Assembly (NCBI GenBank): GCA_026419785.1
Contig: JAODTK010000899.1
Span: forward strand, 248,001-312,000
From: Sclerodactyla briareus
Lineage: Eukaryota; Echinodermata; Holothuroidea; Dendrochirotida; Sclerodactylidae
DNA: 64,000 bases
Reading direction: 5' to 3'
Shown piece after piece: positions 1,905 to 57,430 of this stretch. The position numbers were made by a program, and so were the translations under genes. Each line of letters begins with the position of its first letter. The stretch's first letter is position 1. The notes under the pieces were generated by a model. That model was given only the letters and a program-made list of their open reading frames with translations, was not told the origin of the DNA and ran no database searches.

Positions 1905-2195
1905 AACAGTGAACTTTCAGATTAGAGGGCCGTCATGCCGAAATTCAACTTCCCAATTTAGGAATCCAGTATCCTGTAATGCCCTTGTCAATTGTATGAC
2001 GCACCACTATAACCTTGACAGGTGGAGCCATTGCGAAGGTGTGTCATAAAATGCTTTTGCATTAACGCACCCCTCAGTCACTGAGATGACGCACAACTCT
2101 TTGAAAATGACACACTAATCCAGCTTCTTCCGTCTCGAGACCTTCGTTGTTTGTACTTCTTTTCGTTCCTTCACCTGACTCCCGTCTAGCTTGTG

Positions 2196-2892: not shown

Positions 2893-3164
2893 CTACTGCC
2901 AGAAATGCCTGCTCCGAGACAATTTATGGCGCTGAAACTCAGCCCACCTATGGCCACGAATTGTCCACATCCTGCCCTACTGGTGGAGGTTTTTGGATCA
3001 CTTGCTAAATTTCGGAACTTTTGTACTTTTATAAGTTCCCCCCCCCCCGTTTAACGATCCTTATGGTTCTCTAGCCAGTGATCAAAAGCTAATACTTTCG
3101 CTATTAAGTCATTCATATCTCTAATCCCCATCGTTGCGATGCCCCTCTCCTCCTTTTATGCCAG

Positions 3165-3870
3165 CTTCAATGAAACTATCTGACATTACTTCCACCACCC
3201 GTGTGTTCGTCAAACTCTGTTCAGATCAGACACCAAAAAAAGGCTCAGGTCCTGACGGCATTCCTCCGATGTATCCCAGAGTGCCCGCCTGACTCGCGCC
3301 AATTCGCGGCAAGCTTTTCCGTTTATGCTACCTCTATGGGCCTGTACCCTCTGAGTGGACACACGCCAAATTTGGGCAGTTCCTCAAGAAGGGTGACAGC
3401 ACTGAGAGGTGTAAACCCTACAATTATGGGCCAACTACCATCAGCTCATCACATCACATCAGTATACTCTCCAAAGGCATTATGGGAACCGTACTTGATA
3501 ATCATGCCTTGTTGTTTGTGGATGCCACTCTCTCATCCGGCAATGGCCCGCTTCAGTACGGTTTCCGTCCAGGCTGGTCCTACTACTACTTGGGTCTTAC
3601 ATTTGTCACCGACCAGTGGGTTTCAGCCATCGACACCTTCAGTGGAAAGCAGGGTCTATTGTCTCTTGAATGTTGCCAAGCCTTCGACCACGTATGGCAT
3701 GCTGGACTTCTTGCTTAATTACTACTTTTGGTTTTGGTCATAGTCTCATCTCATGGCCTGCTAGTCAGTTTCTCACTGGCCGACCAATCTCTGCTCGTAT
3801 TGAGGGAGCCATTTCTGAAACTTTCCCATTAACTTTCCCATTCCTCAAGGGTATGTTTTTCTCCTACACT
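3165..3870 (+). pseudogene. Jockey-like non-LTR reverse transcriptase fragment
   Basis: This encodes the N-terminal two thirds of a jockey-superfamily reverse transcriptase, the enzyme that primes cDNA synthesis on nicked target DNA. Readable pieces, in shifting frames, are GSGPDGIPP (near 3,250), YGPVPSEW (near 3,340), LLTFVTDQW-like text (near 3,597), and SLECCQAFDHVWHAGLLA (near 3,665-3,715), which matches the ALDIAKAFDRVWHAGLL core holding the first catalytic Asp. The FADD block that should follow is missing: the sequence jumps from about 3,870 to 3'-flank text, while the paralogous copy keeps about 465 bp more. Several frameshifts and stops make it inactive. It lies inside the segmental duplication, so it predates that duplication. 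Confidence 0.8.
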
Positions 3871-4400
3871 CTCGAATCGATTATATTGTAGCACGATAAG
3901 GACGAGATTAGCCCTCTTGCGGCTGATTGTACAGTCTAGGATACATCGACATGTATACTTCAGTATAATGGATAAATAATCCAATAAACGAGTATTGTCG
4001 TTTAGTATAGGGGGAATACTACTGCCAGAAATATGATAAACTCATTGGAAGAACAAGCGGCATGTGAATTATAAAAGCGGGCTACTATATAGCTTGGAGG
4101 CAAAAAACTGAATGCGTCAGTCCCAAACCCGCAATTCATACGACTTACCGTCACAGAGTTAACGTTCCTTTGACGTTTGTGCTGTGTATGCGCTAAGATC
4201 GAAAAGCATACATCATGCAATAGAAAGATGTAATACCGGTACTTGATGTGGCAACAACCCTTGCAAACTTCTTTGTTTTCTATTGATTCACACATTATTT
4301 CACTTGGAAAAGCATTCAGTCTATAGGAGAGGATTGCTGTAGGGGGTGGTAGGTTTGGATGGTTATGGTGGTGAGAGAAAGAAACAGAATTTCTGCTAAG

Positions 4401-5574
4401 CAGTAGCGGATACAGAGGTGGAGGGGGGTCCAGGGGGTCCACGGACCCCCCCCCCCTCCCCTTTTGGTTCAGAGCTTTTCGAAAACTAATGCATTCTTAC
4501 AATTGTGTGGATCCAGGCGGCTTTGGGGGAGTCGGCTCCCCCCGCACACTTTCCCCGCTATGTGACGTCCTTCTGTGCTGAATGTACACTCTAAATAGGA
4601 CATATCTTTACAAGGATACAGACCCTAAAAAAATTTCCGCGCTCGCGCGCACTATCGTTTGCTCTCTGTGGCATTGTTATGTGGGTGTCATTGTCTTAGC
4701 AGGGTCGGCACCACGAAGAAGAAGGACCGACATTTGCCCACCTATGGAATTCTATCCCCAAAATAACATCGTGTAGAAACGTTTTAAGACACGTATTTGG
4801 TAGGGTGGGGTGTGGGTTACACTGTCATGAGTAAAGTGTATTGTGATACGTTCATGTCGCAATTAGAACATTTCAGGTGAACCTCCGAAAATTTGGCAGG
4901 CGTTGCCGGCTCTGTTAACTTATTGTGTATAACGTTCATATTGTGAAGGTCCAACGAGCAAATATGAGAGTATACTCGCATCATCATTTGCTAATAGCCT
5001 ACGGTATCTTCATTCACCTCAAAGCTTATAGCAAAGCAGTATAGTTGAGAAACATGCCAAACAGTATGCAACCACTAAAATGTACATATGTGATTTGAGT
5101 GAGAGAAAGCATTTCAATCCGTATTTGACCGACCTATTCATAACTTCTGTGAGATCTCGCGCTATGCGCGAAATGTGGTGTATGTGTTGTCGTATGCCCC
5201 TTACGACGTTGACTCCTGGAGAAGTAGTAAGGTCTGTTAGTGTTGTAAATCCGTAGCGGATTCTGTTTTAAATTGCCGTGACTTATAGCCACCAAACTTT
5301 TAAGCGATTGGCGGACGGAAGGTGAGGATATTCGAATAAAACGCCCAGATGAACCTTAACGACTAGAACCAAATCGCATCTTAGGTATAAGGTGAAATGC
5401 AACATGATTTCCAAAATAGAAGAGTGTGAAAGTGTGCTATATGGCACCAAATTGATCTAAGGCAACATGAATGAAAAAAATTGAACCCTCCCACAGCCCA
5501 CCATCAAACTCCACCCCCAAAAATCACCAGCCTCCCCCTCCCCTTCACTAAAAATTCCGGCTAATACGCCACTG
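4401..5574. mobile_element. Putative hAT-like non-autonomous DNA element
   Basis: The stretch starts CAGTAGCGGATACAGAGG and ends GCTAATACGCCACTG, whose complement starts CAGTGGCGTATTAGC. CAG...CTG termini with a GGCG core are typical of hAT-type non-autonomous elements in marine invertebrates. A long C run follows the left end (about 4,441-4,460) and C-rich text precedes the right end. It is absent from the paralogous locus at about 60,620. The eight bases on the two sides (CTGCTAAG and GTTTGGAT) do not match, so the two termini may belong to different insertions. No transposase is seen. Confidence 0.35.
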
Positions 5575-6775
5575 GTTTGGATCCCCCTTCAAAAATCTGC
5601 ATAGCCCCATGGAGCAGGCCTGTGCCGTTCGTACCAATGAATAGTGAACCTTTTCCGATTAGAAAAATTAGAAGGTGCCTAAGTGTAGCTTGTGTGGTGT
5701 TGATGAAGTCTATAAGCCTGCTGGATGCTGATACACTGAACTTCTATATTTGCACGGGTCATATGAAGAATGGGGCGGATGGACAACATGAGAAGAAGTC
5801 AGACATCGCGTGCGAAAGTACGCAGTTTCGAGGATTCAACAATGGAGAACTCATATATTCCATAAAAACAGTCACGAATCAGTCATTGAACCTACGAATA
5901 TGTCGAATACGGTATGAGCGAAAGAGCAGCGGGGTCAAAATAGGAGGAGAACGAAATGCCACTCGGTTCCTCTCAATCCAATTATTGAAGGCGACCCCCC
6001 CCAGCTAGACGCGCATGCATGCACCCCGTCGAAGGCCTCTGACAGAGGGTGGGATGAGGTTCGGATATCTTCGATCGGTCACGCTGGCGCGTATCCATAT
6101 TTTTTTTGGAAAAATTAAAGAATGACTTCGAGAGGAAATTGGAAAATAAAGGGATGAAAAATGTCGTGGGGGTGGGGGGAGGGAAACTGCCATTTTCGCT
6201 AGAGCCAAGGGACCCTACCTGTGAAAATACTGGATCCGCCCCTGAAATTTTGAACTTAGTCAACAAATGAAACAATTAAATAATCAAACATAACTTTCCG
6301 GGTTGTCCAAGGGTGACGTCATGCGTTGTTGCGCAAAGTGTATGTTCCCAAATCTCTGCATAGTAAACCAACTTTGAAGGTAAAACTCCACATAGGAACA
6401 ATAGTATTGAAAAGGGTTCAGACTTATACATTTCAGTTTTCCATACAACCCGTTGTATCCAAGCTGCAGCTGTCCTCCAAACAGGTGCGCGTTTCTACGG
6501 GGAGCTTTTGGGGCTCAAACCCCTTCACACCACCCCCCCAGAAAAAATGGCTCAACCCCCCCCCCCCTCCCCCAATGTTGCTTTATTGTTCAGTTAATAT
6601 GCGTATTGGCCATGGTTGAAATAACATAAGCGTCCTGCCCTCTTCACACCCTTAGGCTATACCAAAAATTCCCACAGGTCGCATTTTCTCGCGATACACC
6701 AAATCATGAAAGCAAATTCTATTCATATCTCGTAAGGTCGAGTACATAGACTGCTTGTACAGCAGTTATAGTGCA
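5575..6775. other. Repeat-like debris, no assignable gene
   Basis: A 143-codon frame (5,577-6,008, plus, no ATG at its start) is open but resembles nothing I know. At 6,229-6,244 the text TGGATCCGCCCCTG is the usual 3' terminus of a CAG...CTG DNA element, so some of 6,000-6,244 is probably a minus-strand element end; its partner terminus was not found. A second C-rich patch at 6,525-6,575 looks like another such end. The block is missing from the duplication partner. Confidence 0.35.
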
Positions 6776-7065
6776 AACTGCGCTTCTTCGGGCATATGGC
6801 TCGCCTTCAGGCAAGACGACCGTTCAACCGAATTCTGTCTGTACGGGATCCGGTGGGTTGTGGCCGCCTGTCAGAACGGCCTCGTTAGCTCTTGGTTAGC
6901 GCCGCTTCGTGGGTACCACTCATGGAGTAATAGGTGGGATGGTTCAGAGGCGTCATGCCCAGGCCTGATCGCTGTCCCGGAGAAGGCCCTGAGTGACTGA
7001 AGCTTCGGCCCGGTGGATGCGGCGAGGTGCCTTCTCAAGGCATGTGCCCCATCCAGTGATGAGTA
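6776..7065 (+). pseudogene. C-terminal tail of a non-LTR retrotransposon polyprotein
   Basis: The plus strand reads KLRFFGHMARLQ, then DPFNRILSVRDPVG, then scattered VDAA and CAP text across two or more frames. This matches the conserved tail found after the reverse transcriptase in many marine non-LTR elements: an FGHxARxP block, a LxxRDP block, a GRPxxSWLRQ-like stretch and a VDAATR block. Only the tail is present; no RT core lies upstream within 600 bp, so this is a 5'-truncated dead copy. Single-base shifts break the frame near 6,860 and 6,900. The clade cannot be fixed from the tail alone. Confidence 0.5.
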
Positions 7066-7984
7066 GTGACAACTGAGCGTCAAGATCGACAACGCACTCA
7101 TCTCCCCTCTCCCCATTTCCGTATTGTGTTCGTACAACTGTGCACAGTGTTCATGGTCACGAAAGCATCACTATCTTAATTACTCCACTGCTTGCATAAT
7201 TTTGTATTACTAGGACCAAAGAAATAAGGAAAAATCAGGAGCTGAATTATTCCCAGGATCCCTAGGTATTGTTAAGGAATCGTGGGGCTAGTTGTATTTC
7301 AGAGTTGTCCCACACAGTAAAAATTTGGATAATTAGCACATCGTTCATTCTGTTAATCACAATCACACCTTGATCACGCTGGGCATGTTTCCGTATACGG
7401 GTTGGGCACGGATGCCGTCTATTGCGTGACCTCCATTGGTCATGTCATGTAGTGTTGTACATATATGTAAACCTGCCACTACACTTTTAGACCGATTCTA
7501 TTCTGTCCGTTTAAACGCCCTATAACCCCCCACCGCCCCCCTGAAGACCATGTTCCTAGAGCCTCACAGACTGGGCGGAAGTGCAGACTTGCTGCAAATC
7601 TGGTGACCTGATTGTTTAACAGTTCCTATGAGCCTGACAGCTTCAATTACGGAGCCAATGTCATATTGCAATAATGCACACGACACGCCAACACTGATTC
7701 TTATATCCCAGACGCACGTGATATATATAGTACTATTGTTCTTTCAGAACACTTTTCACGTTAAGTGAGAATTCACAGACACAAAATCTATATTTCAAGA
7801 TGGAAACATTTAGGCTATGCACCTCGTTTATTGCCGTTTCCGGCCATCTGAGAGTTTGTGGAGTCCGAAATTTTATTCGACTCTCGCGCCAACTATTGTG
7901 GCGATCCGCTTAGATAGTAGTCCACAAATTATCCACTCCTGTTAGCCCCCACCCCCTCCCCAAATGGGACTCTAGATCCGCGAC
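7066..7984. other. Unassigned sequence
   Basis: No gene or repeat array recognised. The words GGCGATCCGCTTAGAT at about 7,900 recur at about 20,390, and a short C-rich tract sits at about 7,945-7,962, so part of this is probably an old DNA-element end. Confidence 0.4.
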
Positions 7985-8514
7985 TTCCTTCAAATCGTCA
8001 AAGAGCTCCGTCATAATTATTCGTATTCTCTTCATTTGAGGATAGCTGGAGGAGAGGATTTATTTGCAAAATGTTCATCCCGTTGGTCAATATCAGTACA
8101 TCCATTCAACGTCCACTGGTGTGTTCACACAAAGTTTTCATAAATATCGTTTTTCGTTTCGTACATCGCCATCGAAGAATGAATAAACTTGGATAAGAAG
8201 TAGTGCGAAATGAAAGGCTGGAAGTGTTACCCAAATTAGAAAATTACTCTCGGATCTATCTTAATGCATGTTTCAGTTGGAAATATCACGGTAGTATTTT
8301 GTACGTTGATTACGAATTTAAACTAATAAATGAAATTAAATTGTGCAACCTTTCCAATCGTGTAACGATTCACTGGTTTATTTAATCATACTTGAATAAA
8401 TATCTTCATTACTGCTAGATATTTCTTATTTTTATCCTTATTATTTGTTAAGATTGTTATTTCAGTACATTTTCCATACTGTACTTTTCATTTTTAATTT
8501 CACTGTATTATATT

Positions 8515-8636
8515 CTAGAGGGCTCCATGGACGATTGGCTCTTGCTGAATGAGGTTACCCTCTCTTAATAATAAATAAATAAATACAATAAAATAAATAA
8601 ATAACTAAATAAATAAATAATAAAAAATAAATAAAT
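8515..8636 (+). repeat. AAATA-type tail of a non-LTR retroelement
   Basis: GGCTCTTGCTGAATGAGGTT followed by ACCCTCTCTTAAT and then about 80 bp of AAATA units is the usual layout of a CR1/L2-type 3' UTR and its microsatellite tail. The duplication partner has the same UTR text and a more degenerate tail at about 61,440-61,610. Upstream sequence back to about 8,000 is shared with the partner but carries no readable RT. Confidence 0.5.
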
Positions 8637-21203: not shown

Positions 21204-21723
21204 GCTAAGACACTGTTGGAACGTGAACGAGACGCCGTGTGGATAACGTTTCACCCCTCACAGGATCAGTGTTACATTCAACTGTAACCTGTGTTGAGTC
21301 ATGAGGGCCCTGCGGTATGTAAACCGACTTTTGTTATCACATCACGGTCGCCCTATCGTGTGTGTATGGGGCGCTGGTAAAAAGCGATTTGGCACTCCTT
21401 GCTTGATCTTGACAGGGGACACATGCACACAAACTGCACTGGGGGCCTCATCCTGGTTTGCCTACAGAATTCGTCTTCGCAACCTATAGCTTGCAATCTA
21501 TAGTTAGGGTTACACTATATGTATTTGCTGAGATTAGTTACACATACAAATGCAGTTGCCTGTTCTCGGTTCGCACAGGATCATTTTTTTCTCTCAAAAG
21601 TTCGATAGGTAAAAGTATAGTATGCCTTTGCCTCTTCAGTTAATATGACAGTCCCATGGTGGGGCCAGCTCCCTAGACGGAAATATTCACCAAGATTATA
21701 CCACGTCATTCCAAGTACAAGAT
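21204..21723. other. Unassigned sequence before the LTR element
   Basis: No gene recognised. TTCGCAACCTATAG at about 21,476 recurs at about 12,417. Confidence 0.35.
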
Positions 21724-21729
21724 GGATGG
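21724..21729. repeat. Left target-site duplication GGATGG
   Basis: GGATGG directly precedes TGTCACAGGGAGTAAGG, the left end of LTR A, and recurs directly after the right end of LTR C at 35,501-35,506. Five bases (GATGG) is the usual gypsy length; the sixth may be chance. Confidence 0.75.
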
Positions 21730-22808
21730 TGTCACAGGGAGTAAGGTCGCTTCTCTGAGCTACGGTACAAAATGGATTAGGAGTTAGAACGAGGGACTCG
21801 GATTAGGATATAAAGTGGTTAAACTATGATTATGCATGGGTGACAGCACTGAAGTAGTGTATTAACCAGTTGGGAAGTGCATTCCATTGAATATTGTTCT
21901 AAGTGTGTAAGGTGTATACGGTTGGTGCAGTAGGACACTGCAGGTTCCACCCCCTGCGAAGTAAATGTGTAGTTTTGTTACAGTCACAAGTATCGACGTA
22001 GTGTATTTCTACACATGCAGAGGATGGTAGATTGGTCTTGTGTATGTATCGCCGAGGGTACATTATACGTAGTGTACTTATTGAGACTTACGCTATTTTG
22101 GGCATCGCGAGGATGTGTTCCCTCCGAGACAACATCGTGGACCCTGAAAAACGTATTGACAATTTCATTTTCCCTGTTGGAAACCAAGCTCGTTGAGGAG
22201 ACTTGTAAGTAATTTTCATTATTGGGGAGGGCCTATTAATACCGACATTATAGAGTATTTCCTCCGTATTCGCGATATGTGAGCAATGTGTGAAAAGGCA
22301 TTGCATTATTGTAATTCAGGCTTTTCCCGTACCCATGGCTTGGCAGCTCACTCGGAGTGAACAAGATGCAGAAGAGCCGCGCACTGTATTTATGCGGAGA
22401 TGTTTCGGGTCGAACCGCCACCCTTAGCGGGACAGTGTATTCTTGTTACATGGGCCCCCCGTTAGACTGACGTCATCTTACTAGCAGTACTATAACGTAT
22501 GGTCGGGATTGACTTAGGATGTAGCTAGTGGTTTCGAACTGAACATCTATCCATTCAAGGAGGTCTATGGAGGCACACTTATATTATTCAAGGGTCATGA
22601 GTAATGTAATCCCGTATTTACTATTATGTAATAGTGGCCACTAAAAAGTTGAATTACTTATTTATTTTTTCATGTAGAATTATGTATAGAAATATTCATT
22701 ATGTGTTTTACGTTATTGAACAAACCGAGCCTGTCTGTTTACCTGAACACGTGGGTGGGCACAGGTTTTTTCATTGGCATTCGCTTGTCCAGTTTCTACT
22801 TCGTGAAA
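21730..22808 (+). repeat. LTR A (5' LTR, 3'-truncated)
   Basis: Matches LTR B and LTR C almost along its length: GGAGTAAGGTCGCTTCTCTG at the left, TATTTATGCGGAGATGTTTC in the middle, AACAAACCGAGCCTGTCTG-like text near the right. Homology stops at about 22,808, where LTRs B and C run on for about 320 bp more. The missing end would have carried the LTR terminus beside the tRNA primer-binding site. Confidence 0.85.
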
Positions 22809-23379
22809 TTTTGACGACCCCGCCAGACCGCTTTGAAAAAAAAAGAGGTCGCAATCTAAAATTGTTCAGGATTGATAGATGCGTTTGTTCTAACGTATCG
22901 TAGTTTTTTATGGTGATAATCGTTTTAGTACATTGTTGTAGTTCATTAATGTCTCATGTCCGAACGGTATTTTTCAATTGGGGAAGGACTGTGGACTGTG
23001 GAGTGGAGTGTTTTGGGTTGTGCTGTATTATCTCTGTGAAATTGCTGTAAATTTTAGGTCTAGTTTCCTTCGAACTCGGTTAATCATTCTCCATGGAAAG
23101 TTTCAGTACTATTCATGATATCAGTGAAAGATTGGCAGCGGATGTTTTGTATTCCATGAGATTTTTTCGTTGATGTATACTTGTCCTAAATTTTTCTGGA
23201 TTGGGAGCTACTATTACAGTAATAAATAGTGTTTAACTACTAGTACCGGTTGTGCTACACCTGTCTCCGCCTAGTGTCCATCCTAACTATAGTGCTAGGC
23301 AGACGACCTCTTGTAAGTTACACTGTATTAAGGATTGATATTTCCGTGACAAGGCAAGAGCAAAGGGTACTGTAACAAC

Positions 23380-24470
23380 CAGATGCACGGAATCGGAAAG
23401 GGCAAATCCTGTGTCATTTGTGAACAGGATGTAAGGAATAGCGACATGGCCCTTCACTGTGATTTACTGTTTGGCATGGATACAATAGCTGTGCAAGAAG
23501 GTCTGAAAGTATGAGTTTACGATGGAAAGTGGAGATCAGAACTCATTGGTTTTGGGGGGCGGGGATGTATGGGAAGGCGGTGTGATTTGCTTAAGCTTGT
23601 CAGTAATCTGATGTAGGGCAGCAAGAACTTTTTATTGAGAAATGAATAGACTGGACAAAGGTGGAGACATTGCACAATGTAGACCAGAATTCAGAGAGAC
23701 GTTAAGAGGTAGTTACGAAGTGAAGTCAAAGAGTGGGGATACTGGACAGAATGAGGAGAATCAGTAAAGCTTGCTGCAATAACCGCGGGCACCACCAATA
23801 AGGAAACAAAGATATTCAGGGCACAAGTTAGTGAAGCAGTAAATAGGGCGAAGAGACGAACGATAGTGTTGTATAACAACCCAAGAGGGAGTGACTCACA
23901 CCAGAGAGGTACAAGGGAAGGGTTGAAGATCTCCTACATAATTTGGTGCTGTCCCACCAGGTGAGATTGTGGCAATGTCAACAGACGGAAGGCCGCCAGA
24001 TATGCCAGTGTAGAACTTGAAAGGGACGAAGAGCAGAGCAAAGCTGTTTGAAACGATAAAAACTGAGACAAACATTCAGTATTCGAGGTAATACATTAGA
24101 CACCCGATCTAACTTATCAAGCAACGGCAGAGTGTAAACAAATCAAGAGGTATGAAAATGCGGTGGACGCGGCGAGACAAATCTTACTTAAAGATTAATG
24201 GAGGGAAACTGGTGAAAGTTTACGATGAAGCACAGCACCAGGCACTACCCAACAGACCGAGACAGGAGAGCAGCACTGAAATAGGGATCGGAAGCAAGAG
24301 TCGAGCGGGAAGAAGCAAGAGTAGAATGGGGAGAGAAGAATATGCGGAGAAAAAAGGTCAGCTAGTGCAAACATTTGAGGTACCACAGGCGACCAGGACA
24401 TGGCAGCTCGGCCGAGAGGGGGAGCTTTCGCGATTATCATTACCAGCGACAGAGGAAAAAAGATGACAAA
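23380..24470 (+). pseudogene. CR1-like ORF1 with PHD-type zinc finger
   Basis: GKSCVICEQDVRNSDMALHC (about 23,399-23,458) followed, one frame over, by VWHGYNSCARRSESM gives the Cys2...Cys2-His-Cys layout of a PHD finger. Further on, FGAVPPGEIVAMSTDGRPPD (about 23,940-24,000) is readable, and a charged 104-codon frame (24,152-24,466) ends the ORF. ORF1 proteins of CR1-type elements are thought to bind RNA or chromatin; PHD fingers are known in this position. Indels break the frame at least four times. It sits just before ORF2 on the same strand. Confidence 0.55.
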
Positions 24471-24479
24471 AGAACATTG

Positions 24480-27270
24480 TCATAAGGGAGAACCTGTGAA
24501 AGAAGTTTATTTGTGTTTTATATTTTAATGTAATGCCAGATACTATATTAAAGAACAAACTTGAACTTATTACATTCCTATGTGGAGAGAATAATTTATG
24601 ACATTGTTCTCATCACAGAGTCATGGTTTGTTGGACAGATTAGTAATGCAGAAATTCAGTTACCCCAATTATATTTGTTATAGGAAGGATCGACGAGAGA
24701 GACAGTGGTTTAGGGTTTGGCGAGTTATATCAGAAAGGTATAAGGGTAACAGTTAGAAACGATTGGAACTGTTGAAGGAGCACTATGGTACAAATTGAAG
24801 TGAAGGCAGTGAATATTAGTAGGAGTAGTCCACAGAGCAACCGAAAACAATCACGAGTGTGAGGAGCACTTATTGGGACCTTTTACGAAGATAGGAGGAG
24901 AGGCAGACGATGATGATTGTTGGAGACTTCAATTATCCTGACATTAATGGATACTTTATATAGGCATCACATGCGAGGCAAGAATGTTTGGGCAGACATA
25001 CCGGATAAACTTTGTGGCACGCAGCATATATTGGAACCACCGAGGACAAAATACTTTCAGATTTATTTATTGACATCAGAAGAAGAATTGGTTTGAACAT
25101 ATAGCATAGGGCACATTTGGAGCTTCAGGACCATAATTGGATTGGCATCAGCTGGAACTGTGTGGTTACTAGAGGGGTGGTAAGCAATATCCAAAATCAA
25201 AAGTGACTGGAACTGAGCGAAGTGGGAGAAAATGAGCCGCCACTGTTTGGTGATTGACTGGAAAGAAGAATTTAGTAACAGGAGTTCCGGATATGTGGAA
25301 CAGATTTGTGTCCATTACTAAGAGCATGTTGACGCAATTATTTGCTCAGAGAAGTCTGTCAGTTACATAGCAGACCAAAATGGATTGACTAATTATATAA
25401 AAAATGATCTGGAAGAAGAGAAGGCAATGGAAAAAGTAACAACTAGGAAGGAGTATGGGGACTGGAATTACTATAAGATGCTGCTGCAGTCGCAAGTGAA
25501 AAGTCAAATAAAGAAAGCGAAGAAAAACTTTGAGTGCCGCTTCTCGGAAAAAATTAAGAAATATCCAAAATCCTCTAGCCTAGTATAGGTCAAAACAAAG
25601 TAGGACTATATCAAAAATGAAGTGGAGAATTGATCTCTTCTAAGGAGAAACGCAGAGGCCCTGAACATGTTTTTTCTGGACAGTTTTACCCAGGAGGATG
25701 TTGACAATGTTCCAATGGAGACAGTGTTCTTCGACAATGAACAAAAATCAACGACTACAGAATATGGAGATAACAGAAGAAATATGGTGTTGAAGAAGTG
25801 ACAACCATGGAGAAAGGAAAAGCCACAGGACCATATGGTTATCAAATCAGATTACCTAAAGGAGCTTGCCCAAGAAATAGGCAAGCAACTGCAAATGAAT
25901 TCCAGAAGTCATTGGAGAACACAGAAATACCAAAGGACTGGAAGAGATCCAATATCACGCCACTGTATAAAAAGGTGAACGATCAAAAGTATCTACCTAC
26001 AGGCCAGTGAATCTGACTTTGTTCCAGGGAAGGTTATGGAAATGATATTACGATATGCAGTTTACAACCTTTGTAAGGAAACAAACCTATTTAGACACCT
26101 AACCCATCATGCTTTCGATCTGGACGTTCATGTCTGATAATATGTTAATGTACTGGAATACACTAACACAGTATATATGATTATGGAATCCCAGTTGATG
26201 TGATATATTTAGATCTTCAGAAAGCATTTGACACCGTGCCACACCAAGACTATGAAAAAATTAAGGGACATGGTATAGATGGACTCATGCTCGAGGTGGA
26301 TTAAAGTAGTGGCTAAGTGAAGCGGGATCAACGAGTGTATTGAACGGTATTGACAAAATTCCAAGATGGATGAAAATAACAAGTTCTGTAGTGCAAGGAT
26401 CAGTGCTTGTACCGGTGTTTTTTACTAGTCATGAATGATTTGGATGTTGGCATTACGTCTGAAGTCCGTAAAATTTCGCCGACGATACAAAAGTGATCAG
26501 TCCAATGCGGAACGAGAGAGATCATCAGCAGTACAAGCAGGTTTAAAACCTTGTTTGGGTATGGCAGAAAATGGCAATGAACTTAACATAAGAGTGGTGC
26601 AGTGATGCATTTGGCCATGGAAACCCCAACTACAAGTACGAAATGCGTGAAACGAGTTGACAAGAATCGACGAGGAAAAGGTGCTTGGGGTTTTTTTGTT
26701 AGCACCACCATGAAGTTCAGTAGACAGTGTGCAGATTCTGTGAAGAAAGCAAATACATTCTAGGGAAAGTATAAAGCGACCTTTCCTCCTAACTTCAACA
26801 CAGAGTCATATTGATAATTTGTACAAGTCACTAGTGAGGCCACACCTTGGTTATTCATACCCCTCTGGAAACCAATACCTGAAGAAAGTCATTACCTTGT
26901 TAGAAGGGGTGCAGCGGAGGAATGACACAAAATGATACCGGGAATGACTGGAAAGAACATAGAGGAAAGATACAAGACTAGGATTGATGACCATTCAACG
27001 ACGTTCATGCACGTCCGGTCTTATCCATTTTTCAACCTTTTCGGCAGGGAAAATCAAATTGGGTGTCATGAGAGTTGTTTAAATAATACGGACCAAGAAT
27101 GAGTAATTCAAGGTAGGTAAGACCCAGTAATTGGTCGATTGGAAACTGACGGAACTCCGTCTTCAATAGAATATGGAAAATTGGACTAGACTCCCAGAGA
27201 GTGCTGTGTCAGCAACACTAACTGATTTCAAGAACATTCTAGAACCAAAACTAGATGAGAGGGTGGCCAT
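24480..27270 (+). pseudogene. CR1-like ORF2: AP endonuclease and reverse transcriptase
   Basis: The endonuclease start is readable as ENN(Y)DIVLITESWFVGQ-like text (about 24,590-24,640), holding the metal-binding Glu. A long linker follows (open 67-codon frame at 25,385-25,588). The RT begins at WKRSNITPLYKKVN (about 25,940), then IYLDLQKAFDTVPHQ (about 26,205-26,245, first catalytic Asp), a VVQGSVLVPVFF-like block (about 26,390) and FADDTKVI (about 26,478-26,500, catalytic Asp pair). The tail WTRLPESAVSATLTDFKN (about 27,183-27,235) is the usual CR1/L2 C-terminus. This is near full-length for the clade, but stops and frameshifts recur every 50-200 bp. Confidence 0.8.
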
Positions 27271-27286
27271 CCAGGTAAATCCCAGG

Positions 27287-28300
27287 AATGGATTCAACGG
27301 GGAACGAGTTGTTGCAGTTTGTTAGAGAAAAGAATGAGAGGAAAAGCAAAATAGCCGAAAGGGATGCAGGGCAATTGAAACGGGAATTCAAAAAATACTT
27401 GAAGAACAGGAGGGTCTGCTCTTGCACAGCTGGGAAATGAACATCGTGCGCCAGCCATAAAGATGCCTAATTGCAGTATTTTGTAGAGATAAGTCTGAGT
27501 TGGATTCCCATTTATTGGAACGTTTTGAGGCGATCGCACTTGGTTGCGAAGTGGCCTAAGGAAGATTGGGATTAGTTTAGGAGCTTTGTTATCGGGAAGG
27601 CTCTTGATGTCTCTCCAGGTTATCGAGTGTTGATGCCAATGCTTCACGATACTCTAAAAACTGCGTTTTAGAGCGTTCCAATCTCATCAGAGGGCTTTCG
27701 GCGAACATTAATTCCGACAGTCCAAGCCAGAGTCGGGCGAGATTTATGGCGCAAGTTTTGGTGGCGGCTCAGACGATCTTTGAGTAGATGGATGGATGCC
27801 CAGCAGTTTTGAAGCGCGATACATTGATCTTCAAGATCTTGTTTCTGCGCGAACAAATTCTAGCGGCGTGCAGAGCGGCGCGCAAAGAATTGGTGATATT
27901 CATAAGGAACGGCAGCCTAAACTGTGTGAAGGAGCTCACGACTCTTGTTGCAGATAGATATAAACTCGTGCATGGGCGTGGCGTAGAGGGATCAAAGGTT
28001 AAGGGAGCACAGTGGCAAGCTAAGCCTAGCGACAATCGAGATCAGGACCCAAAACTCCTGCGCAAGCGTCTGCATCGCGTTCCTGCTATGTGTGGGGAAA
28101 CATGCACGTACCGAGATTGTTATGACGGTTCCGTACAACCCCTGTAATCGAAGAAAAGTTTCTTCGGTACAGGAGGCTGACAATTCGAACGATGACGGTG
28201 AAAAGACAGAAAGTGATGACGTCAGTGCGTGTATCGAGGTATCGTCAACAGGTAACCAGATAGCGAAATTGATCCACCTTAACGGTCAGTTGCGGTAAGT
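27287..28300 (+). pseudogene. Gmr1-like gag
   Basis: Starts at an ATG reading MDSTGNELLQFVREKNERK, a charged coiled N-terminus. Then, across frames: LDSHLLERFEAIALGCE (about 27,500-27,550), LRRSLSRW (about 27,765), LREQILAACR with ELVIFIRNG (open frame 27,788-28,147), VKELTTLVADRYKLVHGRG and SDNRDQDPKLLRKR. A Cys-rich block at about 28,080-28,125 ending YRDCYDG has the spacing of a CCHC zinc knuckle with one Cys changed. Gag forms the particle and its knuckle binds RNA. The capsid part resembles gypsy Gag of the retrotransposon-Gag family. At least four indels. Confidence 0.7.
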
Positions 28301-28989
28301 GAATTTGCTCAGGGGTCGTCGTCGGAGTGTACACTGGTATGCCAGTATTGCATGGTCGGTTAGGCATCAGAGATTGGAGCTGTTGCCGTGACACAGTTGC
28401 AATATAGTTTGTGGTCAAAAGGTCATTGGTCACTTCCGAACAACTAACACGGGGCCGAAATGGGAAAATGTTGCCTTACCTGACAAACATTCATTAAGTG
28501 TCAGTAAGCTCTAGTTGATTTAGATTCCCCCTATTTCACAGGACATGTTCGGGTAGTATATATTAGAGGACCCCCTATATGACGTAGTGATTGGGATACG
28601 TTGGGGCAAGGATAGGATCCATTGGATGTTGCCCCCTTGGCAACCACAAAAGGGTGGAGAACCCGACGGGAAATTTCCGTCGGTCGAAACTAGGAGCCAA
28701 AAGAGAGAGCAAAAGAAACCTCTCAAATCACTAAAGTGGTTGAAGGACTTCGACATTTCACAATCTCGAGGAGTTATTGAGCCCAACGAAAAGATTCGAC
28801 ACGAAAATGTTCGAAAATGTGGCGGGTGAGGGCAAATCCTTCGTACGACGGAAAGGGGGCAGAATCCAATTCGTATGTGACGATGAGATTGTTGTTCCCG
28901 AGAGTACGGGTCTCCTCACGTAAACATGGGTGAAGAAGTATAAGCAATTGTGGTACCGAAAGAGTTCAGACGCGAGTGTGACGTTACTC
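28301..28989 (+). pseudogene. Protease and linker region, degraded
   Basis: Between the zinc knuckle and integrase, where the aspartic protease of a gypsy Pol belongs. I do not find a clear DSG/DTG active site. Open pieces include an 80-codon frame at 28,587-28,829 with PPWQPQKGGEPDGKFPSVET. Assigned by position only. Confidence 0.4.
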
Positions 28990-29990
28990 ATGATACTCGG
29001 ATGGGTGGACACCCTAAAAAGCTAAAAATACAAAACTGATCGGGTTTAGCTTCGTTTTTATTGGCCAGGGGTTCACGGCGACATAGAGCGATATTGTGCT
29101 TCCTGCGATTTTGCCCAAAAGACAATATCAAAAGGCAAATGACCAAAAGTTCCCTGGGACAAATGCCAATAATTGACACACCGTTCAAAAGTGAGCAGTG
29201 GACATAATAGGACCTCTAGATCCGGTAACAAAAAGGGAAACCGGTATATCTGACTGTTGTAGATTATGCCACCCGATATCCAGAGGGATAACGTTACCAC
29301 CGATGCTAATAGAAGCCACAAGGGTTGCCGAGGCGTTACTGGCACTATTTTGTAAGGCATGAGTGTCCCAGAGGAAATTCTCTCAGATCGGGAACCACAA
29401 TTGCATGTCATAGGCATGAAGAGGTCGGGAGGCTCCTTTCTTTAAAACATTGTAACAAAACCCCCGTATCATCCAAGTTTGTAACGTCCTTGTTGCACGT
29501 TTCAACGGAACGCTAAAAAAGATGTTGAGACGTATGTGTTGTGAAAAACCCAAAGACTGGGATCCGTTATTTGCCCGCACTGGCTGTTTGCTTTTAGGGA
29601 GTGCCCCAGGACAAATTTTGAGGATTTGCCAAGACATTATGAAACTATTGTATGAGGTCTTTCGAGTCCCCTTACATTCTAAAAGGAACTCACAATGGGA
29701 AGGGAAGTCGCTTTGCTACGAAGTTAAGCCTCACATACGAGTACGTACCTGATCTGCGAAATCGATTTGGAAGAGACGGTGTGTCATTGCCCAAACAGGA
29801 ACTAGGCAAAAGTGCGTTCGATATCGAAATAACGAGACGCAAAATCGTAAGATCGACAATTCAAAATAGGAGATCAGGTTTTAGTTTTGTTGCCCACTGA
29901 AGCAATAAGCTAACAATGGAATGGAAAGGTCCATTCTAGTTCCAAGGGAAGGCTAGAGCGAACGGATTTTAAAATCTCGTTGGACGGCAA
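28990..29990 (+). pseudogene. Ty3/gypsy-type integrase placed before RT
   Basis: Zinc-finger region: FYWPGVHGDIERYCASCDFC (about 29,054-29,113). Core: MPIIDTPFK (about 29,165), IIGPLDPVTKRGNRY-like text carrying the first catalytic Asp region (about 29,200-29,245), then LSDRE (about 29,380, second Asp). The third acidic residue should stand in VERFNG; here the codon at 29,495-29,497 is GCA, reading LVARFNG. C-terminal GPY/F module: IGDQVLVLLPTE-like text and MEWKGPF (about 29,860-29,935). Integrase joins the cDNA ends to host DNA. The domain types are gypsy, but the gene lies upstream of RT rather than after RNase H. Confidence 0.85.
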
Positions 29991-30229
29991 GGATGAAATA
30001 TTCATGCACAATTCTTCTCAAGAAATTCCAGTGTGGAGCAGAGTCAGTAAGTGGAGTGAAGCGATGTGCACCTTCCGAAGAAAAATGCTGACTGTAACTA
30101 GTGCACCGGAAAGCGCTGCAAGTTCAGTAGAAGGTCCTCGAACTTTCGATCGGTCCCTCTGAAGCAAAATGAATCATCCAGGGATGTAATGTGAAACGAC
30201 AATTGGTCAGAGTAAGGTCGAAATACTCA
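29991..30229 (+). other. Integrase-RT spacer
   Basis: Readable continuation includes DGKDEIFMHNSSQ (about 29,980-30,020), the usual text just after the GPY/F module, then low-information linker. No separate domain. Confidence 0.45.
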
Positions 30230-31080
30230 ATCAAGTCGGTGTTGACCGAGTTCAGTGATGACTTACACAGACTTGCCGGTCAAACGAGCTGGTGACGCAT
30301 AACATAAATCTAACGACGGATGATCCAGTTAGACTGAAAGCCATATGTCAACTCCATTTGCCATAAGAAATGAAATCGATACGGAGATTGATAGAATGCG
30401 CCAGATGGGCATTATATCACTTTCGGAATCACCGTATGCTGCTTTGCTCCGATAGTCATCGTTAAAAAACCGGATGGGAGTACCGGTTTTGCATTGACTA
30501 CCGGTTGTTGAACCGAATTACTATAATCGAAGCGAGACCCCGGAACCGATTCTCCAAACTTGACATCTCATGACGATCATATCGTCGGGTAAGGTGTTTT
30601 CAAAGATCGATCTGTCACAGGATATTGGCCCGATACCGGTTAAGCGATAGCCGATAAGGCAGAAGACTTTGCATTTATCTCTTCAGAACTGGCTTGTTCA
30701 ATTCAATGTGATGCCTTTTCGGGCTTAGTGAATGGCTCCGCTACGTTTTCTCGAATGATGCGAAGGCTATTAGATGATTCTGCGTAACGTCGTAAACACA
30801 TATACGATATTCTCGTCTATACCGAGACGATTGATATCATTTTGGCAGAAGGTGTTTAAACGTTCTGCGAGTACGCGGGTCTAACGACGTCGCGAAACCT
30901 TCGAAATGCTTCGTGGTTTATTGTTCACTAGATTTTCTAGGACACGTGGTTGGCCAGGGTATTGTGCGGCGACAACCTGATAAGGTCAGCATATACTACT
31001 CGAGGCATAGACCCTGTACCAAGAAAGAGGTTCGTTCGTTTCTTGGCTTAGTTGGATACTAATCGGAAGTTTGTCCGACT
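30230..31080 (+). pseudogene. Ty3/gypsy-type reverse transcriptase
   Basis: Readable in order: NINLTTDDPVRLK (about 30,303-30,340), IDTEIDRMRQMGIISLSESP (about 30,375-30,435), IVKKPDG then RFCIDYRLLNRIT (about 30,490-30,530), FSKIDLSQD (about 30,600), MPFGL-like text (about 30,710), RMMRRLLDD, then DILVYTET (about 30,808-30,830), the end of the YxDD active site whose Tyr and first Asp region are disturbed by an indel. After that come FLGHVVGQGIVRRQPDK-type text (about 30,937-30,985) and TKKEVRSFLGLVGY (about 31,018-31,060). This is the full RT fold in shifting frames. Confidence 0.85.
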
Positions 31081-31099
31081 TTGCCTGTCTATCGCTGTC

Positions 31100-31620
31100 C
31101 CTACTACCTACCGAACTGACTCTAAGCAGGCCGACATGTGGTTTGGGGGGATGCGCAAGAGCCAGCGTTCAACACGCTCAGTCGCGTATTTCAACTTCCC
31201 GATATTGCATTGCCGGATACGAACTGTACGTCATTATTGCGCCCTGATGCATCATGTATTGGCGTGGGCGCGGTACTGTTGCAAGACTTCGGGGAAGACA
31301 TTTTTCCGGTTGCACTCGCGATAGGACTGTTGCCCAGGGAGCAATGTCTACTCTTCTACAGTGGAGCGCGAATGTCCTGGCTCTGGTTTGGGCACTAGAA
31401 AATTTCACCCATATTTGTTTGCAACGAGTTTTGGCCTTGGAGGAACCATCGACCTCTCACATTTGTCAGAGACAAAGCTAAAAACAGTCGTATTAGCGTT
31501 GGGCCGTTGTGTTTGCACGAGTATCTGTATGTAGTTTGCCATCAAAGGGCTCGGATGATCATGGGGCTGATTTTCTTAGCCGAATGTGTGAAAGTAGAGG
31601 TCGACGTCACTCAGAGGTGG
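31100..31620 (+). pseudogene. Ty3/gypsy-type RNase H
   Basis: LPDIALPDTNCTSLLRPDAS then IGVGAVLLQDFGEDIFPVAL (about 31,196-31,315) gives the first beta strands, with the catalytic Asp of the TDAS motif kept as PDAS. Further on, a LALVWALENF-like stretch (about 31,375-31,405) and DHGADFLS-type text (about 31,553-31,580) complete the domain. RNase H removes the RNA template strand. It follows RT directly and ends about 170 bp before the polypurine tract. Confidence 0.8.
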
Positions 31621-31770
31621 TATATGACCTATAGACCTGCCGTAGTACTTTATATTATTGCGAGTATAAGTTGTCGAAACGGTTATTTTGTGTTAAGTCC
31701 TTAGACCCAAGAATGTAGAGGTCTATTTCAGTGACATTTGTTTTATGTTGCTTGTGGATTAGCAACATGA

Positions 31771-31787
31771 AATTGGGGGGGGGGGGG
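31771..31787 (+). promoter_or_regulatory. Polypurine tract of LTR B
   Basis: GAAATTGGGGGGGGGGGGGG stands directly before the TGTGCCACATGG start of LTR B. Such tracts resist RNase H and prime plus-strand DNA. The same layout precedes LTR C. Confidence 0.8.
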
Positions 31788-33182
31788 TGTGCCACATGGT
31801 AGTACGGTCGCGTTCTGATCTCCCGTACAAATTGGATTAGGAGTTGACAGGACTCGGATTAGGATATAGGTACGTGAAGTGTATATACATATGAATAATG
31901 CATGAGGTGCAGCACTTAAGTAGTGTATTGTAAACAGTTGGGGTATTGCATTCCATTGCTATTGTTCTAAGTTGTTGTTGTTCTAAGTTTTGTGACAGTC
32001 ACAATGTATCGGCGTAGTTTTATTTCTACACAATCGCCGAGATGTAAGATTGGTTCTTTGTGTATGTATCGCCGAGGGTACAACATTATACGTAGTGTAC
32101 TTATTGAGACTTACGCTATTTTGGGCATCGCCGAGGATTGTTCCTCCGACACAATCGTGGAACCCTGCAAAACGTATTGACAATTTCATTTTATGTGTTG
32201 GGAAACCGAGCTCGTTAGGCTCTTTTACAGTAAATTTTCATTATTTGGGGAGGGGCCTAGAATACCTGACATTATATAGTATTTGTCCTCCGTATTGACA
32301 TATGGAGCAATGTGTGCTAATGGCTTGCATTGATTGTATTTTCAGGGTGTTTCCCGTACCCCACTGGGCCTGGCAGCTCACTCTGAATTAACAAGCTGGC
32401 AGAAGAGGAGCAGTGCCACTCTATTTATGCGGAGATGTTTCGGGTCGAACCGCCACCCTTAGCGGGACGGGCGTTATTTCTTGTTACATGGGCACCCCCG
32501 TTAGACTTACGTCAACCATACGAGCAGTAGTCTATAAACGTATCGTCGGGATTAATTGCTTAGGATGTAGCTAAGTGGTTCGCACTGAACATTATCATTC
32601 AAAGGAGGTCTATGGAGGCACACCCGTATATTATTTAGGGTCCATTGAGTAATGTAGCCCTTATTTCTATTATGTATAGTGGCCACTTGGGTGGCCACTA
32701 CAAGTTGAAATTAACGCTATTTATTTTTCCATATGTAATAATTTATGTCTCGAATATATTCATTATGTGTTCTACGTTATTAAACAAACGAGCCTGTCAG
32801 CTGTTTACCTGAACACGGTGGGCAGCAAGGGTTTTCACTGGTATTCCCTTGTCATTTTACTTACTTTGTGACGATGGGTTCGATTGAATAACGGTTTTCT
32901 GGGGATGTAATCTGATCGAGGTTTCTTCCTCCCCTCCAAAGCAGCCACTTTGCCATTTTTTGGTCCTCCGGTAGTTTGAGATGAGAATTGATAAATTGGA
33001 TTATGACAAATGGAGAGCCCCACGATTGATTGTAAACCATTGTCCCGAGAAAAATTACATGGACCCATCATAATTAAACCATCACCTGCGGTACTGAAAT
33101 CCAGCTTCGAACAACTTTGGCTATCCGTCCCGTTGTGACCCTAACTCAAAGCCTGGTAATATGAGCTTGGACATAAAACAAC
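31788..33182 (+). repeat. LTR B (internal LTR)
   Basis: Starts TGTGCCACATGG and follows LTR C along its length, with many single-base insertions relative to it. Homology to LTR C ends at about 33,182, some 18-30 bp before the LTR end as defined in LTR C; from there the sequence runs straight into RT text. The primer-binding site and everything up to mid-RT are therefore missing after this LTR. Confidence 0.85.
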
Positions 33183-34000
33183 CAAGACGATTGCAAGACA
33201 TATTGGCAGAGGTGTTTAAACGTCTGAGAGACGCGGGTCTAACGGCGCGACCTTCGAAATGCTTCGTTGGTTATTGTTCACTAGATTTTCTAGGACACGT
33301 GGTTGGCCAGGGTATTGTGCGGCGACAACCTGATAAGGTCAAGCATATACTCGAGGCAAGTAGACCCTGTACCAAGAAAGAGGTTCGTTCGTTTCTTGGC
33401 TTAGTTGGATACTATCGGAAGTTTGTTCCGAACTTTGCTGCGATCGCTGTCCCACTAACAGACCTGACAAGAGCTAAGCAGCCCCGAACATGGTGGTTTG
33501 GGGGGATGCGCAAGAGCCAGCGTTCAACACGCTCAAGAGAAGTCGCGTATTTCAACTTCGCCGATATTGCATTTGCCGGATACGAACTGTACGTTCATAT
33601 TGCGCACTGATGCATCAGGTATTGGCGTGGGCGCGTACTGTTGCAAGACTTCGGGGGAGAAATTTTTCCGGTCGCACTCGCGAGTAGGAAACTGTTGCCC
33701 AGGAGCAAGTCTACTCTACAGTGGAGCGCGAAGTCTGCTCGTAAATTGGGCAGTAGGACATTTCGCACCCATATTTGTATGGCAAAGAGTTTGTCTTGGA
33801 GGCAGCCATTCGGACCTCTCAGCATTTGTCAGAGACCAAAGCTAAAAACATTCCGATTATGCCGTTGGGCGTTGTGTTTGCAAGAGTATCGGTATGTAGT
33901 TGTTGCCATCAAAGGCTCGGATGATCATGGGGCTGATTTTCTTAGCCGATGTGTGAAAGTAGAGTCGAAGTCACTCAGAGGTGGTATATGACCTATAGCT
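33161..34000 (+). pseudogene. Second, partial RT/RNase H copy
   Basis: A 149-codon frame begins just inside LTR B and reads LQDILAEVFKRLRDAGLTAR, then PSKCFVGYCSLDFLGHVVGQ, then VRSFLGLVGYYRKFVPNFAA (to about 33,440). RNase H follows: LRTDASGIGVGA (about 33,600-33,640), LCLQEYRYVVVAIKGSDDHG and ADFLSRC (about 33,875-33,955). It duplicates 30,830-31,600 with higher readability, lacking the RT catalytic YxDD part and everything before it. It sits between LTR B and LTR C. Confidence 0.85.
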
Positions 34001-34130
34001 GTCGTAGTACTTTATATTATTGCGAGTATAAGTTGTCGAAACGTTATTTTGTGTTAAGTCTTAGACACAGAATGTAGAGGTCTATTTCAGTGACATTTGT
34101 TTTTATGTTGCTTGTGGATTAGCAACATGA

Positions 34131-34145
34131 AATGGGGGGGGGGGT
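34131..34145 (+). promoter_or_regulatory. Polypurine tract of LTR C
   Basis: GAAATGGGGGGGGGG directly before the TGTGCCACATGGGAGTAAGG start of LTR C. Confidence 0.8.
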
Positions 34146-35500
34146 TGTGCCACATGGGAGTAAGGTCGCTCTTCTGAGCTACCGTACAATTTGGATTAGG
34201 AGTTAGACGAGGGACTCGGATTAGGATATAGGTACGTGAAGTTGGTATAACTTATGGATATGCATGAGGTGCAGCAATTAAGTAGTGTATTGTAAACAGT
34301 TGGGTAGTGCATTCCTTTCCATTGCTATTGTTCTAAGTTGTTGTTGTTCTAAGTTTTGTACAGTCACAATGTATCGGACGTAGTTTTATTTCTACACATC
34401 GCCGAGGATGGTAGATTGTTCTTTGTGTATGTATCGCCGAGGGTACATTACACGTAGTGTATTTATCGAGATTACGCTATTTTGGGCATCGCCGAGGATG
34501 TTCCGTCCGATACATCGTGGAACCCTGCAAAACGTATTGACAATTTCAATTTTTATCTGTGTTGAAACCAAGCTCGTTGAGGAGACTTGTAAGTAAATTT
34601 TCATTATTGGGGAGGCCCCTTATAATACCTGACATTATAGAGTATTTCCTCCGTATTTGCGATATGTGAGCAATGTGTGCTAAATGCTTGCATTATTGTA
34701 ATTTCAGGGTTTTCCCGTACCCATGGGCTTGGCAGCTCACTCTGAATTAACAAGCTGGCAGAAGAGCAGTGCCACTCTATTTATGCGGAGATGTTTCGGG
34801 TCGAACCCCACCCTTAGCGGGACAGCGTATTCTTGTTACATGGGCACCCCGTTAGACTGACGTCACCTTACTAGCAGTACTATAACGTATGGTCGGGATT
34901 GACTTAGGATGTAGCTAGTGGTTCGAACTGAACATTATCCATTCAAGGAGGTCTATGGAGGCACACGTATATTATTTAGGGTCATTGAGTAATGTAGCCC
35001 TTATTTACTATTATGTATAGTGGCCACTACAAGTTGAATTAACCTCTTTATTTTCATGTAGAATATATATGTATCGAATATATTCATTATGTGTTCTACG
35101 TTATTGAACAAACGAGCCTGTCTGTTTACCTGAACACGGTGGGCACAAGGGTTTTCACTGGTATTCCCTTGTCAGTTTTTACTTTGTGACAGATGGGTGC
35201 GATTGATACGGTTCTATTGTAATCTGATCGAGCGTTTCCTCCAAAGCAGCCACTTTGCCATTTTGTCTCCGGTAAGTTGAGATGAGAATGTGATAAATTG
35301 GATTATGACAAATGGAGAGCCCCACGAGTGATGTTAAAACCATTGTCACGAGAAAAATATAAATAGACCCACATAATTACCACCACATGCAGGTTACTGC
35401 TCCAGCTTCGCACAACTTGTCTATCCCGTTGCCCTAACTCAAAGCACTGGTAATATGAGCTTTGACTCAAACCAACACAAGAGGGAATCGTGAACACCCA
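34146..35500 (+). repeat. LTR C (3' LTR, complete)
   Basis: About 1,355 bp, from TGTGCCACATGGGAGTAAGG to GTGAACACCCA, with TG...CA ends, and followed by GGATGG, the copy of the left target duplication. It is the cleanest of the three LTRs. I did not identify a certain TATA box or poly(A) signal in it. Confidence 0.85.
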
Positions 35501-55344: not shown

Positions 55345-56560
55345 CAAAAACAGTAAACTTTCCAATTGGCGGGCAGTATGCAGAAATTCAACTTCCCATT
55401 AGGAATCGTATGCCTGTATGCACTCGTCCATTGTATGACGCACCCACTATAACCTGTACTGGCGAGTCATTCATCGGAGTGGTGATCATGAATGCTTGTG
55501 GCCTTAACGCACCCCTCAGTCACTGAAATGACTCACCATACTTGACACACGAGGCCAGCGTTTTCTAATCAACAATGTAACCGTAAGTGGAAATGCCCCC
55601 TGCCCCCAAAACGCTGTTATGGCAATTTATAAGGCGATGCACTTACTTTTTATAACCGCTAACCTGTCAGTGTGCCCACCTGGCCAGCCTGCTAGACTTG
55701 CTTTTCTTAGCCCACGGAGGTGGCCACTCGCTTCAATCCGAATTCACTGACTTTACAATGGTGGAAAGGTGCGTGCCATCTGCATAATAAATTGACAATG
55801 CAGAAAGTCATCCTTTGTGACGACTCATTTAATATTCATAAAACGATACACATGTGTTCACTTTCGATTTTGACTTGATCCACCACACTTGATTGACTAT
55901 GCCCAATGCAATTGAAGGGTGCATCAAGGCGATTGATGAGTGCATTACGTAACGGCAGAATGACAGCAGATATGCATATAGGCATGTATCATAAGTGTCG
56001 AAGCGCTGAAAACAGTCAACGAAGCCTCAGAAAATGATTTAGGGCCTTTTATATGCGTAAAGAAAAAACTGGTGGCGCAAAGCACTTCATATATTTGCAC
56101 TGATCCCAACCACCCACTTTTAGGTTACAATCAATGGAACTGGTCTTTAATTATGGCTTATGCCGAAGGCCACAAATTTATCTCTACTAAAACAATAAAA
56201 AGAAACCATACAAACTGATTCTTGCTTATTTTTACGAATTAAGTTTTCAAGAAACCTCAGGCCAAGGCATGTCATGATCCAATGGCCTGGATGAAGTGAC
56301 CGTTATGTTTTAAATATGACCCTTTACAAATCATCGCAGCTTGATCCCGAAGTCTTCAACAAGGTAGGAACCTTGTCAATAGAGTTATTGTCCTGTTAAT
56401 ATTTAGGTTTGCGGCTCTCATACCTTTGTGACCGTGACATGCAACTAGAAAAAAAAAAACTTAGGACATTCACACCACATTACGACATACAGCTGATATG
56501 ATTTTATACATGCTTGGGTTCTTCAATATCGTCCGGACAAAGAGTGTCCTCACCACACCA

Positions 56561-56630
56561 TGCACACACGTACACACGCACACAACACACCCACACACAC
56601 ACACACACACACACCACACACACTACATAC
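56561..56630. repeat. (CA)n microsatellite
   Basis: Imperfect CA/ACAC repeat; the His/Thr-rich frames across it are a composition effect. Confidence 0.95.
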
Positions 56631-57119
56631 ATCACAACGGACACACCACATACATGCGTTACCAAAAGATTCATTTGGCCGGGCAAGGAATCATCAATTC
56701 GTGGTCTCTCGTTGTTCACGATCATACTGGTGGCTTAGAAGGTCATTTTTCGAGAGTGATGTTTCGAGATTCCGATTGTCCGACTTTTCCGTCTAGAGTT
56801 TCGATGTTCTACTTTTTTTTCCGTTCCTTCACCCGACTCCCTTCTAGCTTGTGTTTACTGCCAGAAACACCTCCGAACCATTGATGGGGATGAAACTCAT
56901 CCCACTTATCGGACAAACAATTGTCCTCATGACCAATGAATGGATTTTTCGTGGTCACTTGCCAATTTGTGGTCTCGGAACTTTCGTACTTCTATTCCCC
57001 AGTTTAACACAACCTGATGGTTCTCTGGGCCAGTGATTGTAAAGCTAAAATGTTTGCTAACTATTTCTTCTTCTAATTCCAACTCGATGTCTTGTACCCA
57101 CTCTCCTTCTTTTTCTGCA

Positions 57120-57430
57120 GCTCCAATTAAACTATCTGACATTCACCACCCGCTTGTTTCGGTCGAACTCTGTTCAGATGGACAACCAACATAGCTCAGG
57201 TCCTGAACCGGCATTCCCCCGATTGTACTCCCGGCGTCGCCCCCTGAGCTCGTTCCAATTCTTCTCGGCCAGCTCTTTCCGTTTGTACTACTCTATGGCT
57301 GTTACCCTTCTGAGTAAAAATGCTCACTAACTTTGGCCCAGTCCTAAGGAGGGTGACAGTTGTAACCTCTCCAATTCCGGGTCATACCATCACATCCGTA
57401 TTCTCTAAAGTTAATGACAAACTCATAATT
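57120..57430 (+). pseudogene. Jockey-like RT, N-terminal part (copy 2)
   Basis: Aligns with 3,165-3,480: LSD...HPLVSVELCSD text, SGP(D)..IPP, then LFRLYYSMAVTLLSK-like text in shifting frames. The RT breaks at about 57,430 and resumes at 59,285, so the sequence between is an insertion. Confidence 0.7.

Follow-up and report, generated by a model that had tools for sequence, protein, structure and literature searches.

The 64,000-nucleotide stretch of Sclerodactyla briareus DNA analysed here (the window) harbours a single insertion of ~11.1 kb, at ~21,730-32,872, and the interval 28,990-31,620 that a preliminary description had given for the element proved nearly right. The insertion is bounded by LTRs of ~1.05-1.09 kb on the plus strand: a 5' copy (LTR1) at 21,730-22,807, whose inner end was set by comparison with copies on another contig, C2096, and a 3' copy (LTR2) at 31,788-32,872, found by repeat comparison and direct reading. 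By direct reading, GATGG stands immediately before LTR1 (21,725-21,729) and immediately after LTR2 (32,873-32,877), as well as after a third LTR (LTR3) described below; LTR ends were placed by eye, and a 5-base flank match would occur by chance about once in 1,000 per placement. LTR retrotransposons are characterized by TG..CA termini and a target duplication of 4-6 bp (PMC12440569, in excerpt), and both are seen here, in the termini of LTR3 and in the GATGG flanks, with LTR1 and LTR2 each one letter short at the 3' end. A G run stands ahead of the 3' LTRs; the one read at 31,775-31,787 (plus strand) is the likely polypurine tract. Given the LTR copies, the GATGG flanks and the G run, the outer ends most probably stem from a single integration of ~11.1 kb. 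Queried against the 319-Mb assembly, LTR3 found 45 matching pieces, six of them near full query length, and three of those six lie inside the window.

Downstream of LTR1, a candidate primer-binding site was located at 22,812-22,825 (plus strand) by direct reading and from the C2096 copies; it reads TGGCGACCC in two of the three C2096 copies, and the third has the window version, in which A replaces the second G. At three C2096 sites the window sequence 22,988-22,995 abuts 27,287 directly, so the ~4.29 kb missing there (22,996-27,286, plus strand) is a nested insert, and the element proper measures ~6.85 kb. The insert is LINE-like by eye, and in the Pfam scan one of the ten pieces from the insert and beyond matched RVT_1, at E 0.13 and below the cut-off. 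Within the LTR element it is flanked by the 5' leader on one side and the presumed gag on the other. By position, gag and protease would occupy 27,287-28,940 (plus strand), a region 79-80% alike to the C2096 copies; the pieces of it tried against Pfam gave no meaningful match, and none of six gag/protease comparator pieces scored above the largest of 20 shuffles. The Rfam and tRNA scans found nothing, and ten open reading frames elsewhere in the window had no meaningful Pfam family. Six collinear matches, 69-83% alike and in the same order, link 1,905-8,636 with 55,349-61,561, and this pair represents either another repeat family or a duplication of the segment.

The enzymatic domains follow on the plus strand in the order integrase (zinc domain, catalytic core and C-terminal part; ~28,950-29,993), reverse transcriptase (RT; fingers and palm, 30,322-30,947) and RT thumb with RNase H (30,928-31,583). 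The preliminary description had put the integrase ahead of RT and RNase H and had suggested a frame-tolerant search, which was carried out domain by domain and yields the same order with scores far above those of shuffled sequence. The queries were the domains of L001, a standard-order gypsy element that comes from a plasmid record filed under Wolbachia of the moth Corcyra and is probably host DNA, and the best place was sought within 21,700-33,150, with 30 shuffles as the null. The integrase zinc domain aligned at 28,950-29,273 (score 123; shuffles mean 51, maximum 63), the integrase core to C-terminus at 29,312-29,993 (150; mean 54.5, maximum 72), RT at 30,354-30,947 (265; mean 54, maximum 77) and RT thumb-RNase H at 30,928-31,583 (225; mean 55, maximum 70), with z from 12.5 to 35. 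Minus-strand scores reached only 48-62 in the same alignment, and a tandem second copy of the RT thumb-RNase H part scored 324. The pieces from a wider set of comparators (nine RT, ten RNase H and ten integrase, including those of L003-L011 where these carry the domain), searched within 28,800-31,800, all mapped to these three blocks with the order unchanged, the integrase pieces of L004, L005 and L008 covering part of the integrase only. Even among unmended window pieces, matches to the L001 integrase come first and those to the L001 RT later, whereas in L001 itself the integrase sits after RNase H; these are single pieces with E from 1e-3 to 1e-7, amid many chance matches up to E 1.

Because the reading frames are broken at many places across the element, the pieces available for the Pfam scan were short. 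Twenty plus-strand pieces were scanned, 16 from 28,990-31,620 or just before it and three from the second copy at 33.1-34.0 kb; seven had at least one family at E up to 1 and 13 had none. Integrase_H2C2 was found in the piece 29,050-29,139 (E 5.1e-6, 27 bits against a cut-off of 25.5) and RT_RNaseH_2 in the piece 31,126-31,395 (E 7.7e-7, 29.5 bits, slightly below the cut-off of 29.8). In the second copy RT_RNaseH_2 passed its cut-off (E 3.3e-7), and RVT_1 (E 0.0081) and RT_RNaseH (E 0.015) fell below theirs; the two remaining matches, at E 0.18 and 0.19, are at chance level. The RT thumb matched 12 PDB sequences, best among them 4ol8 (E 1.5e-9), which we take to be a Ty3 structure, and 7q5b (Ty3-G Gag-Pol; E 7.4e-9). 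A 35-residue RT piece alone reached 4ol8 at just E 0.053, and an integrase piece had two unrelated PDB matches only, at E 0.8-0.9. Together with the comparator alignments, these Pfam and structure matches bear out the earlier description of the domains as of Ty3/gypsy type.

Searching the genome with the RT thumb of the second copy gave 60 matches, the best 30 of which were scored as loci; the C2096 copy is absent from these 60, so the list is incomplete. An rve profile search, likewise incomplete in that it missed the window element, gave 20 matches, eight of which were scored, and one place (C2068) is common to both locus sets. With integrase cut-offs of 90 upstream and 80 downstream, the best 30 of the 60 thumb loci comprise 11 integrase-first loci (window included), five RT-first loci and 14 without an order call; RT-first L067 is doubtful and was relabelled as without order because its integrase score overlapped RNase H. 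The eight rve loci comprise six RT-first and two without a call, and opposite-strand integrase scores reached these cut-offs in none of the 38 loci. Over the matched RT-thumb stretch the ten further integrase-first loci are 38-71% identical to the window element. Many kinds of gypsy element, some integrase-first and others RT-first, coexist in this one 319-Mb genome, with at least 60 RT-thumb matches.

In the unrooted RT-thumb tree, nine integrase-first rows are separated from 14 RT-first rows by one branch with support 98/96. A single order change sufficed in 100% of 200 bootstrap trees, against a mean of 7.4 for shuffled labels, none of 500 shuffles being as low. This tree has 34 rows (11 of them unlabelled) and 90 columns; just two of its 31 inner branches carry a star, and the bootstrap had yet to converge (correlation 0.939). 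The 34 rows were retained from 47, after removal of L012, of L016, L048 and L066, each of which showed a place or element already represented, and of nine rows with fewer than 52 residues, including integrase-first L072 and L075 and RT-first L011, L019 and L021. The second copy (L046) itself lacks an integrase and was given the integrase-first label of the window element, for which it stands. The unrooted RT palm tree (33 of 34 matches used, 10 rows unlabelled, two of 30 inner branches starred) separates eight integrase-first from 15 RT-first rows, again with one change (support 91/89, 96% of bootstraps). The integrase tree (22 of 24 matches used, two rows unlabelled, window row absent) separates four from 16 with one change at a weak 55/86 (56% of bootstraps). 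As the trees were midpoint-rooted for drawing only, they place the integrase-first rows on one side of a branch, which is not a proven clade. In both RT trees the RT of the window element stays out of the ordinary-order gypsy rows, the opposite of what the preliminary description had named as a refutation; in the palm tree the window row adjoins the RT-first set, on a very long branch (1.79).

The Gmr1-like group of Ty3/gypsy elements reportedly goes back to Goodwin and Poulter (2002). Gmr1 is described as a gypsy clade with the integrase upstream of RT (PMC8220671, PMC6238403, PMC3587641 and PMC2774666, all in excerpt). The window element resembles that group in having integrase, RT and RNase H of gypsy type (by Pfam, PDB and comparator alignments), in having the integrase upstream of RT on the same strand of one element (by the alignments, the C2096 copy and GATGG at both ends), and in an RT that stands apart from ordinary-order rows. 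On this sequence evidence it is very probably a Gmr1-like Ty3/gypsy LTR retrotransposon, one copy of a multi-copy family in the 319-Mb genome; we class it as Gmr1-like by domain order and RT grouping, in trees built without any Gmr1 reference row. The integrase-first order is real, and the kind of element is already known. Fish Gmr elements measure 6,058-6,465 bp with LTRs of 337-518 bp (PMC11117352, in excerpt); the window element, at ~6.85 kb without its nested insert, is near their length, while its LTRs of 1.05-1.09 kb are about twice as long, the fish values being no formal criterion.

The longer LTRs, and the comparison of trees that lack a Gmr1 sequence, are what one would point to in arguing that an integrase-first gypsy lineage arose independently of Gmr1 through the same swap. 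We consider such an origin improbable, given that the nine (thumb) and eight (palm) integrase-first rows fall on one side of one branch, which is indirect evidence, and that published trees, as excerpted, group a family from an annelid and some elements from crustaceans with Gmr1 (PMC8220671, PMC3587641). With a similarly low probability, the diverse integrase-first gypsy set of this genome may be a lineage whose pol order was swapped independently of Gmr1. The Gmr1-like assignment is the reading we retain.

The insertion is followed on the plus strand by a tandem copy (33,181-35,482) of 30,821-33,187, comprising RT thumb, RNase H, LTR3 (34,146-35,191) and ~300 bases of 3' flank. The two are joined at a short shared sequence and differ mostly by indels: 159 indel runs and 72 mismatches across 2,458 columns of this 2.36-kb repeat, with six transitions among the 23 isolated mismatches. 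An indel-rich difference of this kind would point to uncorrected long reads, in which case many of the frame breaks in the element, which look like long-read error, need not be decay. The tandem copy may itself be an assembly stutter rather than a real duplication, and because assembly errors are likely, LTR divergence was not used for dating.

An error-rich assembly that may stutter could also, in principle, have created the unusual domain order by joining two ordinary gypsy fragments at ~29.9-30.2 kb, the other refutation that the preliminary description had foreseen. A query of 1,401 bases across the integrase-RT junction had four matches in the assembly: the window itself, its tandem copy, a 140-base piece on C940, and C2096:233,573-234,910, which is 78% identical over query positions 18-1335. 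Piece by piece, the C2096 copy matches window 27,287-31,778 collinearly at 74-79% identity, with an LTR next, and it crosses the junction on a different contig, which excludes a join there as the source of the order. GATGG at both outer ends of the insertion and the integrase-first order at the ten further loci also speak against a join, to which we attach hardly any probability. Several internal regions belonging to this family lie head to tail over C2096:231,182-240,033 (L076, L077), with LTRs shared between them, and one runs directly from the gag region into RNase H.

Beyond this genome, the relatives found were three plasmid records and, with an alignment query, 11 genome-contig loci, mostly eukaryotic contamination by their make-up. 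Viral contigs (RT-thumb, integrase-piece and three-row alignment queries), genome contigs (thumb query) and phages gave no confirmed relatives, an integrase piece had no match among plasmids, and across viral contigs, genome contigs, phages and plasmids no element was identified as Gmr1. L012, a likely false match, was excluded, and L010 and L013 have no integrase within the stretch examined. The gypsy elements of eukaryotic kind in records filed as bacterial (the Wolbachia plasmid and symbiont or metagenome bins; L001, L004, L009 and others) are probably contamination. The order is RT-RNase H-integrase in all ten of L001-L009 and L011, the last without an RT palm. Ordinary Ty3/gypsy elements such as L001, L004 and L009 have the same domains as the window element and are 43-47% identical to it over the RT thumb, but differ in this order, the window element having integrase-RT-RNase H. 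Standard-order L009 has the top raw score for both RT (278) and integrase (282), and for RNase H its 270 falls just short of the 271 of L008, so both halves of the window element resemble the same relatives, though not uniquely: per residue, L009 is exceeded by L006 for RT and, for integrase, by the partial L004 and L001 zinc pieces. The integrase-RT-RNase H order is, by established knowledge (PMC6238403, in excerpt), that of Ty1/copia, and on this order alone one might call the window element a Ty1/copia element, an identity with almost no chance of being correct, as its domain sequences are of gypsy type: the Pfam matches are RT_RNaseH_2 and Integrase_H2C2, the best PDB matches are to Ty3 with no Ty1 or copia among the 12 names shown, the integrase aligns with those of gypsy-order elements (the comparators being gypsy only), and RT and integrase of copia type were not found.

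If mobile, this Gmr1-like element would work much as other Ty3/gypsy elements do. Its RNA would be copied by its own RT-RNase H, primed from a tRNA and from the G-rich polypurine tract, and insertion of the DNA by its integrase would duplicate 5 bp of the target. The polyprotein would be laid out as integrase-RT-RNase H, and its enzymes would presumably be cut apart by a protease, in which case the pol order need not change the chemistry.

The preliminary description had gone further, taking the order both to classify the element and to confine its host to deuterostomes. The first part stands, in that gypsy domains occur in the integrase-RT-RNase H order and the RT groups with integrase-first elements; the second fails, as Gmr1-like elements are reported, in the excerpted parts of these papers, in crustaceans (PMC3587641) and in the annelid Lamellibrachia (PMC8220671). 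A later annelid survey, as excerpted, did not find the Gmr1 clade in its own analysis and lists Gmr1 among multi-phylum clades (PMC8556966). Of the marker searches aimed at the host, the one for COX1 had no match; the one for Chitin_bind_4 had none either, but neither did its control, which makes it uninformative. The integrase-first order is no marker of deuterostome hosts. Within one genome, pol order and RT lineage coincide in every scorable row (nine against 14 in the thumb tree), and this agreement fits a single old swap of the order, kept since.
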